Assembly: GCF_003605575.1 (NCBI RefSeq)
Contig: NZ_QKNY01000003.1
Location: forward strand, 62,001 to 126,000
Direction of reading: 5' to 3'
DNA length: 64,000 bases
Source: Halonotius aquaticus
GTDB lineage: Archaea; Halobacteriota; Halobacteria; Halobacteriales; Haloferacaceae
Below are positions 59,049 through 64,000 of the stretch, piece by piece. A program made the position numbers and the translations under genes. A model generated the notes under the pieces. It was given only the letters and a program-made list of their open reading frames with translations. It ran no database searches and had not been told where the DNA came from. Within the stretch, counting starts at the first letter, position 1; each line of letters opens with the position of its first letter.

Positions 59049-60304
59049 TCAGCGCGCTCGCTGGCACAGCGATTGCGCTCGTATTCTGGGTGACGCTGGT
59101 GCTGTATGGCTTTTCGTCCTTCTGGTGGCTGCTTGAAGTGACGGTGCTGGCCACCGGCTGGCGGGCCGACGATGAGAGCGAAATCCCACTCGAAAATATC
59201 CAGGTGCGAATTTTGACCTACAACTCGCCGTCGACCGTGCAGGTGACGGTCAACTCGGTGCCGGAGAAGATCGGCGCGACGAAAGTGATCGCCGAGGCCG
59301 ACATGGATATCGACGGCGCGGATGTCCACGTTGTTCCCGACGACTTCGAGAGTCAAGCTCAAAAGAAGGGCCGAGCCATCGAATGGGCGCGCAAACACGT
59401 CGAGTGTGAGGAGGAGTACATCCTGTATCTCGACGAGGACAGCATCATGGTCAACTTCGAGGGGCTGCCGGCGGCCGATCTGATCCAGATTTCGGAGCAT
59501 CCGCTGCGAACCGGGTCGTGGTGGGTCTATCTCTGTGAGGTGTTCCGGGTCGGCTACCAGCGCGAGCAGCGCGCGTTCCACCGGATGGCGTATCCGCTCT
59601 ACGCATGGGGTGGTGCGGTCGCCGTCCGCCACGAACTCGAAAACGAGGTCACGTGGGACGTGCCGACGATCACCGAGGATACGACCTACATCTGGCGAGC
59701 CGCGAAGTATGTCGACCAACAGGGCGGCAAGTTCGAATACCGCCTGCTCAACAGGCGGTTTCGGAATCAGGCCCCGCCATCGATCCGAGAGATGTTCAAT
59801 CAGCGGCGACGCTGGATGTCGGGGACACTACGGGATATGTACCGCCTCCCGAAGCGATACCTCCCGCTGCAGTTCACGCGGATCATCACCTGGACGCTAT
59901 CGCCGGTGATTCCGCTGTTGTCGGTGTTGGCGTTTCTGTACCCGCAGTTCGTGCCCCAACACGGCCTCTATCAGGTCACCTCGATCGCCCTGTTCAGCAT
60001 GCTGTTCGTCTACATGATCGCCGGGCTGATCGAATACAAGAAGTATCCCGAGGTGTGGCCGATCTATCTGGTGTTGACACCGCTGGTCGTCGCACTCCAC
60101 GCGGTCGGCGCGCTGTGGGGACTGTTTCGGCCGGCGACGGATTTCAAAATCACCGAGAAAACGCCGGGACGGGTCACCCAAGACCAACCGGAGCGTGCAA
60201 GTTCCGAAACGCTCGCCGACCTGAATCCCGACCTCGATGCGGAGATTATGGAACCGAACAAACCAACGGAAGAAGACGAGACGCCCACCTCAGCGAATGA
60301 CTAA
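59045..60304 (+). CDS. Processive-type membrane GT2 glycosyltransferase (copy B)
   Basis: The 419-residue paralogue of the divergently transcribed copy A is easily aligned over its full length. It shares WWLLEV after the first helix, DMDIDGADVHVVPDDF, LYLDEDSI, CEVFRVGYQ, YPLYAWGG, ITEDTTYIWRAA, FRNQAPPS and QRRRWMSG, then four C-terminal helices and an acidic tail. Codon usage is strongly G/C-ending, like core genes here. The two copies meet head-to-head over a 135-bp AT-rich spacer containing tactgtatatac. They may form a heteromeric synthase or make two polymers. Start is GTG 59045. Confidence 0.9.
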   Translation: MISALAGTAIALVFWVTLVLYGFSSFWWLLEVTVLATGWRADDESEIPLENIQVRILTYNSPSTVQVTVNSVPEKIGATKVIAEADMDIDGADVHVVPDDFESQAQKKGRAIEWARKHVECEEEYILYLDEDSIMVNFEGLPAADLIQISEHPLRTGSWWVYLCEVFRVGYQREQRAFHRMAYPLYAWGGAVAVRHELENEVTWDVPTITEDTTYIWRAAKYVDQQGGKFEYRLLNRRFRNQAPPSIREMFNQRRRWMSGTLRDMYRLPKRYLPLQFTRIITWTLSPVIPLLSVLAFLYPQFVPQHGLYQVTSIALFSMLFVYMIAGLIEYKKYPEVWPIYLVLTPLVVALHAVGALWGLFRPATDFKITEKTPGRVTQDQPERASSETLADLNPDLDAEIMEPNKPTEEDETPTSAND

Positions 60305-60308
60305 CAAC

Positions 60309-60575
60309 TTAGCCCCAGATGTTGCCACCACCGTAGTCGGCTTCGCACTGACGGCATGTGTTGATTCCAAGGGCAGCGTAGATGCCACACGTGCCTGTCA
60401 GAGCACTTGTGACGAAAATAAAGACAAGCAGCCCGAGGCCGCCCATAGCCGCCAGCGTCGTCGTCGACTGCGGAACTGACGTGTAGAGCCACGCGATCGC
60501 ACCGAGAGCAACCGGTGTCAGGAGGGTTCGGACGATTCGGTCACGGCGACCAACGTTTGTTTTTCGACCGCTCAT
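60309..60575 (-). CDS. DUF2892-type (YgaP-like) small membrane protein
   Basis: In the 88-residue protein, an N-terminal basic stretch (RKTNVGRRDRIVRTLL) leads into two transmembrane helices with the GTCGIYAALGINTC motif near the C-terminus, typical of DUF2892 (the membrane part of YgaP-type rhodanese proteins). Cys residues cluster in the tail (NTCRQCEADYGG), so thiol or sulfide chemistry is possible. Start ATG 60575 was chosen; a longer frame reading 130 more residues is AT-rich, Ser/Arg-rich and not like the family. Confidence 0.8.
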   Translation of the reverse strand: MSGRKTNVGRRDRIVRTLLTPVALGAIAWLYTSVPQSTTTLAAMGGLGLLVFIFVTSALTGTCGIYAALGINTCRQCEADYGGGNIWG

Positions 60576-60800
60576 ACCATTTGTTACGTCGTTGAAATCC
60601 ATAAAGCAACCGCAAACAGACCAACTAACGCCTGTATCGGCACAATCAACACCGAAGATTTCGACGACACCCGATAAAACAGATGTTACAAGCGGCGGTG
60701 TGACGAAGGGATCAACGAAGTTTTTGTGTCTTGGTAACTTTTCTCGTGGAGAGATCTGTTCGATTGGACAGTTGACCGATTCAATCCCACCCAGAGCGAT

Positions 60801-60812
60801 GGGTTTATTACT
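60801..60812 (+). promoter_or_regulatory. TATA element of the leuA-type gene
   Basis: The sequence gggtttattact is a clear TATA element. Its centre is about 30 nt before ATG 60837, which predicts that the mRNA begins at or next to that ATG and not at TTG 60901. This is the main reason to believe the upstream frame is translated. Confidence 0.6.
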
Positions 60813-60836
60813 CAGGTAGCCACTTAGTGCAGGTAC

Positions 60837-60908
60837 ATGTCTCACCACGACACGGAGGACACGTCGGATTCCCCGGCGGATCGAGTTCTTCGAGGGCACA
60901 TTGACTAA
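60837..60908 (+). CDS. 23-codon leaderless upstream frame, frame-shifted against the leuA-type gene
   Basis: ATG 60837 opens 23 codons with a typical haloarchaeal acidic start (SHHDTEDTSDSPADR), ending at TAA 60906-60908 and overlapping TTG 60901. The downstream gene's frame, read upstream of its TTG, gives RIEFFEGTL directly before TNTDEIESVRIF, which looks like conserved protein. Coding character switches frames near the C4 run at 60871-60874. So this is either a true leader peptide or the first exon-like part of the gene separated by a +1 frameshift or sequencing indel. Confidence 0.5.
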   Translation: MSHHDTEDTSDSPADRVLRGHID

Positions 60909-62067
60909 CACTGACGAAATAGAGTCAGTACGAATTTTCGACACGACGCTGCGTGATGGCGAACAGTCACCACGCACCTCGTTTGATTACAACGACAAAC
61001 GCGCCATCGCCGAGCTGCTGGACGAGATGGGCACCCACGTCATCGAGGCTGGGTTCCCCGTCAACTCCGACCCCGAGTTCGAGGCCGTCTCGGACATCGC
61101 GGCGGCGACCGATGCGACGACCTGCGGGCTCGCCCGCGTCGTCGAGAAGGACGTCCAAGCGGCGATCGACGCTGGCGTCGACATGGTGCACATCTTCGTT
61201 TCGACGAGCGATGTGCAGCTCCAAGACTCGATGCACGCAAGCCGCGAGGAGGCGGTCAACCGCGCGGTCAAAAGCGTCGAGCAGGTTCGCGATGCGGGCT
61301 TGGAGGTCATGTTCTCGCCGATGGATGCGACTCGCACCAACGAGTCGTTCCTCGTCGAGGTCGTCGAGGCGGTCAGCGAGGCCGGCGTCGATTGGATCAA
61401 CATCCCCGACACCTGTGGCGTCGCAACCCCAACCCGGTTTGCGAAGCTCATCAGGCTTGTCGGCGAACACACCGACGCCCGGATCGACGTCCACACCCAC
61501 GACGACTTCGGGCTGGCGACCGCCAACGCGATGTCGGGCTTCGAGGCCGGCGCCCACCAAGCGCAGGTCTCGGTCAACGGCATCGGCGAACGCGCGGGCA
61601 ACGCGGCCTTCGAGGAGGTCGTCATGTCCGCCGAGAGCCTCTACAACGTTGACACCGGCATCGACACGACCCGAATCACCGAGCTGGCGAAGCTCGTCGA
61701 GGAGAAGTCGACGATCCCGATCCCGGTCAACAAGGCGGTCGTCGGCGACAACGCCTTCGCCCACGAAAGCGGCATCCACGCCGCGGGCGTCATGGAGAAC
61801 ACCGACACCTTCGAACCCGGCGTGATGACCCCCGAGATGGTCGGCGCGTCCCGGGAGTTCGTCCTTGGGAAACACACCGGCACCCACTCGGTTCGGAAAC
61901 GCTTGGAGGAGCTCAACTACGAGCCCAGCGATTCGGAGGTTCGGGCGGTCACCAAACTCGTCAAAGAGTTCGGTGCCGAGAAGGAGCAGGTCACCGACAG
62001 CGTGATCGCGCGCTTCGCCGAGGAGGTCGGTGTCAGCGAGATCGACTCAGAGGAGGTACGGGTCTAA
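60901..62067 (+). CDS. leuA: 2-isopropylmalate synthase / (R)-citramalate synthase family enzyme
   Basis: The 388-residue (from TTG 60901) DRE-TIM metallolyase begins TNTDEIESVRIFDTTLRDGEQSP, where DTTLRDGEQ carries the metal and catalytic residues. HVIEAGFPVNSD, VDVHTHDDFGLATANA (the HxH metal pair) and NGIGERAGNAAFEEVVM follow. It condenses acetyl-CoA with a 2-oxo acid, for leucine or, via citramalate, isoleucine. It lacks the C-terminal regulatory LeuA dimer domain (520-residue form), so feedback control by leucine at the protein is doubtful. The start is uncertain (see the frame at 60837). ilvB follows. Confidence 0.88.
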   Translation: MTNTDEIESVRIFDTTLRDGEQSPRTSFDYNDKRAIAELLDEMGTHVIEAGFPVNSDPEFEAVSDIAAATDATTCGLARVVEKDVQAAIDAGVDMVHIFVSTSDVQLQDSMHASREEAVNRAVKSVEQVRDAGLEVMFSPMDATRTNESFLVEVVEAVSEAGVDWINIPDTCGVATPTRFAKLIRLVGEHTDARIDVHTHDDFGLATANAMSGFEAGAHQAQVSVNGIGERAGNAAFEEVVMSAESLYNVDTGIDTTRITELAKLVEEKSTIPIPVNKAVVGDNAFAHESGIHAAGVMENTDTFEPGVMTPEMVGASREFVLGKHTGTHSVRKRLEELNYEPSDSEVRAVTKLVKEFGAEKEQVTDSVIARFAEEVGVSEIDSEEVRV

Positions 62068-62103
62068 TGCCCGTCCCCTGCTCGTTTGCACCCGGTGAGC
62101 GAC

Positions 62104-62135
62104 AGCCCCAGCCAACCGAGCGGGCAGCTGGGGCT
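62104..62135 (+). terminator. Strong hairpin after the leuA-type gene
   Basis: Perfect 9-bp arms agccccagc (62104-62112) and gctggggct (62127-62135) surround a 14-nt loop, 37 bp past the stop codon. No T tract follows, so it is not a classical intrinsic terminator; it may protect the mRNA 3' end or take part in the leader folding of the ilvB transcript. Confidence 0.5.
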
Positions 62136-62170
62136 TGGTGGTCAGTAGCACACCGATCACCGGAAACGCG

Positions 62171-62183
62171 TAACTATTATTAT
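62171..62183 (+). promoter_or_regulatory. TATA element of the ilvB leader
   Basis: The sequence taactattattat is the only AT-rich block between leuA and ilvB. Its centre (about 62177) predicts a transcription start near 62203-62209, so ATG 62209 of the leader frame would be leaderless and ilvB would have a leader of about 220 nt, exceptionally long for haloarchaea. Confidence 0.6.
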
Positions 62184-62208
62184 GAACCGTGTCATTTCTT
62201 CGGGTACG

Positions 62209-62286
62209 ATGCCACAGCAACTCCCTCTCGGCGCGGCGGTCGACCGAGTCAGTGCTGTCGGCGTACGCGGTATTGTAGGGGTCTAA
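62209..62286 (+). CDS. Branched-chain-rich leader peptide of ilvB, 25 codons
   Basis: From ATG 62209 the frame encodes 25 residues, of which six are Val, two Leu and one Ile. Its second half is almost Val every third codon and ends in IVGV. An in-frame ATG at 62182 would add nine residues but lies over the TATA element. The TAA stop (62284-62286) falls within the hairpin at 62278-62290. The composition parallels bacterial ilv leader peptides whose stalling on Val/Ile/Leu codons controls attenuation. This is a hypothesis from sequence. Confidence 0.5.
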   Translation: MPQQLPLGAAVDRVSAVGVRGIVGV

Positions 62287-62303
62287 CCCCGACTCCACTT
62301 TTT
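62278..62303 (+). terminator. Attenuator-like hairpin plus T5 tract in the ilvB leader
   Basis: The perfect stem ggggt (62278-62282) pairs with acccc (62286-62290) around the loop cta, which holds the first bases of the leader stop codon. After gactcca-c, a run of five T (62299-62303) follows. A ribosome on the last Val codons would melt this stem. Archaeal RNA polymerase stops mainly at T runs; whether the stem matters is untested. Confidence 0.45.
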
Positions 62304-62426
62304 ATCCCCAACTCCGGCGTTCGATCCACACCCGCAGTAGGTGTCGAACTCACACAAACCCGACAGCAAACCATGTATTCACCATCACACACAACACGCG
62401 ACCGACCGACCACAGGAGCAGGCCAA

Positions 62427-64000
62427 TGAGCGAAACAGCGAAATCACATCCCGACGCCGACGAGGAATCGACAACCGATGACACGACCGCGGAAGCGACG
62501 ACGGCCGAGGCCGACAGCGGACGGACGCCCGTCACCGACGGCTCGACGGCCATCGTTCGCGCACTCGAAAACGGCGGCGTCGAGCACGCCTTCGGCGTCC
62601 AGGGCGGGGCGATCATGCCCGTCTACGACGCGCTGTGGGACTCCGATATCGAACACATCACGATGGCCCACGAGCAGGGTGCGGCCCACGCGGCTGACGC
62701 CTACGGCGTCGTCGCCAACGAGCCCGGGATCGCGCTGGCCACCTCGGGGCCGGGCGCGACCAACCTCGTTACCGGCATCGCCGACGCCAACATGGACTCC
62801 GATGCGATGGTCGCCCTGACGGGCCAGGTTCCCAGCGACATGGTCGGTTCCGACGCTTTCCAAGAAACCGATACCACCGGCGTGACGATGCCGATCACGA
62901 AACACAACTGGTTCGCAGCCTCCGCCGACAGCATCGGCGACACCGTCGGCGAGGCCTTCGCGCTCTCTGAATCCGGCCGTCCCGGCCCGACGCTGGTCGA
63001 CCTCCCAAAGGACGTGAGCTTCGAGGAGACCGACAACGAGCCCGGCGAACCCGAACTTCCGCCGGGTCAGAAACCGCCAACCGAAGCCGATCAGGAGAAC
63101 GTCGAAGACGCCGCCCGCGCGATCGAACGCGCTGAAAAGCCGCTGCTGCTGCTCGGCGGCGGCGTCATCAAAGCTGAAGCCAGCGAGACCGCTCGCGAGT
63201 TCGCGCGCGAACACGGCATCCCGGTCGTGACGACGATGCCCGGCATCGGCAGCTACCCCGAAGACGACGAACTCTGTCTCTCGTGGGCCGGCATGCACGG
63301 CACCGGCTACGCCAACATGGCGATCACCCACACCGACTGCTTGATCGGCGTCGGCACCCGCTTCGACGACCGACTGACCGGCGGCATCGACACCTTCGCG
63401 CCGGAAGCTGAGGTCGTCCACGTCGATATCGACCCTGCCGAGATCTCGAAAAATATCCACGCCGACTACCCCTGTATCGGCGACGCGGGGACGGTGCTCG
63501 ACCAACTCACCGAGGAGATGGAGCATGAACCCGATGCCCGCGAGTGGCGCGAGCAGTGTCAGACGTGGAAAAACGAGTATCCGATGGATTACTCGATCGA
63601 CAAGGACGCGCCGCTGCGACCGGAGTTCGTCGTCGAGGCCTTCGACGAGGCGACCGACGACGACACCATCGTCACCAGCGGTGTCGGGCAACACCAGATG
63701 TGGGCCTCCCAGTACTGGGAGTTCACCGAGCCGCGCACGTGGGTCTCTTCCCACGGCCTCGGCACGATGGGCTACGGCCTGCCGGCGACCATCGGCGCGC
63801 GCTTCGCCGCTGACGACGACCAGGACGTGGTCTGTTTCGACGGCGACGGCTCCTTTTTGATGACGATCCAGGAGCTGTCGGTCGCCGTCCGCGAAAACCT
63901 TGATATCACAGTCGCCGTCCTCAACAACGAGTACGTCGGGATGGTTCGGCAGTGGCAGGACGCCTTCTTCGAGGGTCGCCACATGGCATCGGAGTACAAC
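62427..64000 (+). CDS. ilvB: Acetolactate synthase large subunit (3' end beyond the window)
   Basis: This ThDP enzyme makes acetolactate or acetohydroxybutyrate, the first common step to Val, Leu and Ile. About 524 residues are visible. After an acidic 30-residue extension come GVEHAFGVQGGAIMPVYDAL, the catalytic Glu in TMAHEQGAAHAADAY, SGPGATNLVTGIADA, the FAD-linker domain (GTRFDDRLTGG), and the ThDP-binding GDGSFLMTIQEL with the start of LNNEYVGMVRQWQ. Roughly the last 60 residues are cut off. It starts 140 bp after the attenuator-like hairpin; ilvN and ilvC are expected next. Confidence 0.96.

Follow-up and report, generated by a model that had tools for sequence, protein, structure and literature searches.

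The window, a 64,000-nt stretch of forward-strand DNA from Halonotius aquaticus whose nearest named relatives are Halonotius species (ilvB identity 90-94%), carries leuA, which ends at 62067, followed by ilvB, which starts at 62426 on the forward strand and runs beyond the window end at 64000. The ilvB product, the large subunit of acetolactate synthase, was recognized by its Pfam TPP_enzyme N, M and C domains, and in H. volcanii ilvB1 is required for Val, Leu and Ile synthesis (PMC4300041). The gap between the two genes contains, from 5′ to 3′ and on the forward strand, a TATA-like element, a short open reading frame (sORF1) with a hairpin at the stop, five consecutive T, a spacer rich in C and another short frame (sORF2). 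The coordinates given in an earlier, sequence-only reading of this DNA were all correct on rechecking, including the 140 bp that separate the short-frame stop from ilvB.

sORF1 (62209-62286), encoding MPQQLPLGAAVDRVSAVGVRGIVGV, opens with ATG at 62209 and comprises 25 codons followed by TAA at 62284-62286. For comparison, 80 named haloarchaeal ilvB loci were fetched and more were added by genome search; the 80 leaders that carry the element consist of 79 loci and the window. An ATG-opened frame reaches the hairpin in 80/80 leaders, compared with 0/80 and 9/80 for the other two frames, and on these counts of open frames a chance origin of sORF1 is excluded. A BRE/TATA-like promoter element was located at 62170-62183, with TATTATTAT at 62175-62183, and in the 80 haloarchaea the AT content at positions -32 to -27 from the sORF1 ATG is 0.75-0.94. 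Because the TATA position is fixed relative to this ATG, the transcript is expected to be leaderless or nearly so, and its predicted start should lie at the ATG or a few nucleotides away; the earlier proposal that a single TATA element places the mRNA start at the frame is in keeping with this conserved spacing. Another ATG, at 62182, is located inside the TATA region itself; as it is probably not part of the transcript, 62209 is the likely start codon. Judged by the open frame in 80/80 leaders and by the TATA spacing, sORF1 would thus be a leader frame placed between promoter and operon. Upstream of the sORF1 promoter, a GCAA-N3-5-TTGC palindrome was observed in 25/80 leaders (0.35 expected) at a constant position of about -57 from the ATG (e.g., L040, L049 and L101). 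It is absent from the window and is likely to be a regulator binding site.

The body of sORF1 yielded a pN/pS of 0.90, compared with 0.25 for ilvB codons 41-100, and the length of the frame ranges from 18 to 54 aa across leaders. As purifying selection is not seen in the body, selection appears to act on translation up to the hairpin and not on the peptide; a functional small peptide was rejected on the same value. That sORF1 is a functional small protein, or else that an ordinary 5′ leader happens to contain such a frame, is hardly credible: small size and the abundance of unannotated small proteins speak for it, but the body evolves neutrally, yet frame, terminal codons and hairpin are kept class-wide. 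The description of the frame as rich in Val, Leu and Ile was retained for its last codons and dropped for the body, in which these residues make up 13.5% across the 80 leaders (ilvB N-terminus, 13.9%).

The branched-chain enrichment is limited to approximately the last seven codons, the upstream body being at background. The C-terminus of sORF1 reads [I/V/L]-V-G-[A/V], followed by 0 to 5 further residues. Taking this Val as position 0, the share of Ile, Leu and Val in the 80 leaders is 100% at positions 0 and -1, 75% at -3 and 56% at -6. The Val at position 0 is encoded by GTA in 80/80 leaders, a codon that accounts for 0.4% of the Val codons in ilvB. It is preceded by ATT in 66 leaders, ATC in 13 and GTA in one, although ATT represents only 8% of the Ile codons in ilvB. 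Where the preceding residue is not Ile, it is usually still branched-chain: GTA in L058, L299 and L300, GTC in L144/L198 and L305, CTC in L143 and GTG elsewhere. One divergent lineage (L148) has Ser before the GTA position. Since this residue swaps among Ile, Val and Leu codons, the constraint is at the level of the amino acid. In the window, the candidate sensor codons are ATT GTA (Ile-Val, 62272-62277), with more Val codons at 62257 and 62263. End-product codons were therefore found at the regulatory position in the 80 leaders; neither the invariant GTA nor the placement of branched-chain codons at the hairpin had been recognized in the sequence-only reading.

A near-invariant C-terminal IVG[A/V] would also be expected if sORF1 were a nascent-peptide arrest sequence, its terminal IVGA stalling the ribosome in response to the free amino acid instead of tRNA charging. 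This was judged improbable, as the upstream residues are unconserved (pN/pS 0.90), position -1 can be Ile, Val or Leu, between 0 and 5 residues are appended after the motif, and the Gly-Ala codons are also accounted for by the GGGG of the stem.

The hairpin at the sORF1 stop, GTAGGGGT-CTA-ACCCC (62275-62290), has a GGGGT/ACCCC stem in which 62278-62282 pairs with 62286-62290. The stop codon had been placed in the loop, which holds for its T and A; its last A belongs to the stem. Taken alone, the hairpin of the window does not reach significance (z -1.2 to -0.3); its support is comparative. The GTAGGGG–CCCC pairing spans loops of 5 to 9 nt, and GGGG is paired in 121/122 minimum free energy folds. 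In 46 relatives with an 8-nt loop, 99.6% of cells are paired and two pairs are changed on both sides, the covariation permutation test being one that ignores relatedness among sequences. Compensatory changes comprise C-G to U-A in three sequences, G-C to C-G in L303 (GGGC/GCCC), GGUG/CGCC in L148 and GGGCC/GGCCC in L301 and L302; L303, L148, L301 and L302 represent distant genera in which the stem persists with other bases. A structurally conserved hairpin that overlaps the leader frame was thus found, and frame and hairpin together are well supported by the comparison. A scan of 60000-64000 with Rfam gave no match at gathering score to a T-box, riboswitch or other element.

As GTAGGGG-N-CCCC is an inverted repeat, it might instead be a DNA operator for a transcription factor, the frame being incidental, and the separate palindrome found before some promoters makes protein regulators plausible. 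Such an operator is very improbable here: the half-sites are 5 to 9 nt apart depending on the leader, only the 5′ one of the two is invariant, the repeat lies nearer to or farther from the promoter according to the length of sORF1 (18-54 aa), and the reading frame is fixed in 80/80 leaders.

The element pattern was matched in 280/292 Halobacteria genomes, as a rule once per genome, and in 50 of 60 relatives compared it lies 76-424 nt before ilvB. The comparison with relatives that had been proposed earlier thus found both the short frame and the hairpin conserved across the class Halobacteria. Eight non-matching genomes were inspected; seven have recognizable variants and in one the contig is cut. 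Nine matches away from ilvB were obtained in the same 60 relatives, none of them with a comparable short frame, and a second copy of the element elsewhere was rejected because the off-ilvB matches that were opened have no such frame. A comparable leader was also sought at other amino-acid genes, and no shared short frame was found upstream of trpC, hom and hisG (30 haloarchaeal loci each). The leader element appears to have been lost in G013. In G043, G045 and G058 there is no leader and ilvB directly follows a leuA with the allosteric LeuA_dimer domain; L145, L146 and G058:C24 are examples of such leader-less lineages. The window leuA (60901-62067) is without this domain, and the correlation between leader absence and LeuA_dimer presence concerns a few lineages only. 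Separately, further copies of ATTGTAGGGGTGCATCCCC were seen at sites distant from ilvB within a single genus (G054:C25:38455, G212:C1:739288, G289:C7:136370 and G234:C1:346937). The one in G054 (L188) is not preceded by an ATG in that frame, coincides with a long open frame of the other strand and looks unrelated.

Following the hairpin, a T5 tract at 62299-62303 constitutes the candidate termination site. The five T noted earlier are thus present in the window, and tracts of at least four T are enriched in relatives (41/130 leaders at 0-40 nt after the hairpin, 10.3 expected) without being universal, occurring within 80 nt of the hairpin in 58/130. The enrichment agrees with known terminators of H. 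volcanii, where the motif is a stretch of T followed by C, and termination in vivo was 95% with a T5C insert and 59% with one hairpin alone (PMC7237163). From hairpin to ilvB the composition is 38% C and 23% G. The untranslated, C-rich spacer (62291-62372) is unstructured, folding against shuffled sequences giving no excess structure (mean z 0.14) and no antiterminator helix; a conserved structure hiding the ilvB start was rejected on the same score. As no mutually exclusive antiterminator helix was found in the spacer, the leader was not filed as a classical trp-type attenuator. FttA/aCPSF1 is the archaeal termination factor, and its exclusion by ribosomes is a hypothesis (PMC11616081). In many leaders (L040, L064, L099 and others) a conserved motif resembling GCACCGTTTTC precedes the ATG of sORF2 by 24-34 nt. 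It may be a termination site, an RNA element or a weak second promoter; considered as a promoter for sORF2, it does not resemble a TATA box.

sORF2 (62373-62429), encoding MYSPSHTTRDRPTTGAGQ, had escaped the sequence-only reading and is coupled in layout to ilvB, its TGA overlapping the ilvB ATG as ATGA. It is present in 66/80 leaders; an ATG-open frame within 120 nt was obtained in 64/80, compared with 1/80 in the control frame, and the pN/pS is 1.25. Its ATG lies 63-85 nt from the hairpin in 80% of leaders. Several leaders lack sORF2, Halorubrum-like ones included (L057, L061, L062, L087 and L088). Work in H. volcanii and E. coli found strict coupling by ATGA overlaps in 13/14 pairs (PMC6728339).

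This arrangement gives the main rival explanation, in which the same leader senses branched-chain tRNA but acts on translation: events at the hairpin, whether stalling or termination, would gate the passage of ribosomes to sORF2 and, by ATGA coupling, to ilvB. The frequency of sORF2 with its overlap, the narrow distance between hairpin and ATG, the strictness of ATGA coupling and the non-universal T-tracts all speak for it. We nevertheless consider a translational output rather unlikely, since several leaders do without sORF2, the spacer has no structure that would hide the ilvB start, and T-tracts are enriched.

The preferred reading, to which we assign a probability of roughly 0.6, is that of a class-wide haloarchaeal ilvB leader-peptide attenuator, mediated by the ribosome through occlusion. 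A conserved frame, conserved codons and a conserved hairpin with an unconserved peptide body match the expected look of an attenuator leader peptide. The attenuator proposed earlier before ilvB is supported in that frame, promoter spacing, terminal codons and hairpin were found conserved and the body was not; the regulatory step is one that we infer, and it would operate without an antiterminator. In short, a transcript from or near the ATG at 62209 would be translated at once into a peptide of mostly irrelevant sequence, its last codons, Ile and Val (the rare GTA), being placed at the foot of the hairpin that contains the stop codon. If charged Val- or Ile-tRNA were scarce, the ribosome would stall there, cover the 5′ arm and keep the hairpin open; staying close behind RNA polymerase, it would allow read-through into ilvB-ilvN-ilvC-leuC. 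If charged tRNA were plentiful, the ribosome would finish and leave, the hairpin would form, and transcription would stop a short way beyond it, in sequence that is either T-rich or untranslated and C-rich, with FttA/aCPSF1 probably assisting. On read-through transcripts, ilvB would probably be translated by termination-reinitiation from sORF2. An attenuator of this kind, without antiterminator, should still act like a trp-type one.

Several points count against the proposal. In Streptomyces, altering codons of the ilvB leader in a comparable way was without effect (PMC1262725). The switch would depend on fast release, because the hairpin would be covered just as well by a ribosome that paused at the stop codon. 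No alternative antiterminator helix emerged from a spacer that folds no better than shuffled sequence. A tract of at least four T is lacking within 80 nt in over half of the leaders, which counts against the termination model.

Leader-peptide attenuation is a textbook bacterial mechanism. In the enterobacterial ilvL and ivbL leaders, the regulatory codons form long runs, and antiterminator and terminator helices exclude each other. They share with the haloarchaeal leader a peptide with branched-chain codons that is encoded ahead of ilv genes, whereas neither the codon runs nor the exclusive helices were found in the latter. Attenuation of the pyrBI type senses UTP through polymerase pausing. 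It resembles the present case in that a ribosome close behind the polymerase would block a hairpin overlapping the leader frame, with no antiterminator needed, and differs in that the haloarchaeal hairpin carries amino-acid codons instead of UTP sensing. The similarity to leader control of the tnaC/Rho type is that the place of the ribosome at the end of the leader frame, with untranslated C-rich sequence alongside, could determine whether factor-dependent termination occurs; in archaea this factor would be FttA/aCPSF1. The nearest described counterpart is found in actinobacterial ilvB leaders (PMC1262725), of Corynebacterium, Mycobacterium and Streptomyces, in which, as here, a short frame with Ile, Val and Leu codons precedes ilvB and overlaps a hairpin near its end (PMC1262725, PMC11857589). 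Their terminators were reported with poly-U runs, and for C. glutamicum a three-hairpin model was proposed (PMC1262725, PMC11857589). In contrast to the actinobacterial leaders, the haloarchaeal frame is predicted to be leaderless, only its last codons are branched-chain, its hairpin is located at the stop codon and followed by a variable T-tract, and the host is an archaeon.

No archaeal amino-acid leader-peptide attenuation had been known to the sequence-only reading, and among the papers that we searched there was likewise no description of archaeal leader-peptide attenuation or of this ilvB leader. If true, archaea would here have their first case of attenuation by an amino-acid leader peptide. 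A conserved, class-wide case would show that coupling between ribosome and RNA polymerase in haloarchaea is tight enough for gene control, and would allow both this coupling and early termination dependent on FttA to be assayed in H. volcanii by simple genetics. It also suggests a search for short leaderless frames before other archaeal operons.

At the 5′ end of the adjacent leuA (60837-60900 in the window; relatives L031-L109), no usable in-frame start was observed. An out-of-frame ATG at 60837 runs to a conserved CGA GTT CTT C[CG]A GGG CAC, from which point LeuA continues in its own frame; this pattern points to a putative programmed +1 frameshift at Val-Leu codons. This ATG is kept in 73/74 loci with the motif, the LeuA frame is without ATG, GTG or TTG within 110 nt in 60/74, and in three loci an in-frame stop lies 18-21 nt before the putative shift site. 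Pfeiffer and Dyall-Smith had previously pointed out the leuA start-codon problem and the possibility of slippage (PMC8305020); what the present comparison adds is how widely the out-of-frame ATG is conserved. It is quite possible, though less likely than not, that in haloarchaea the cluster has two ribosome-based branched-chain sensors, the ilvB attenuator and a leuA that can be read only through the +1 frameshift (CGA GTT CTT C), which would jointly replace the LeuA allosteric domain missing from the window leuA.
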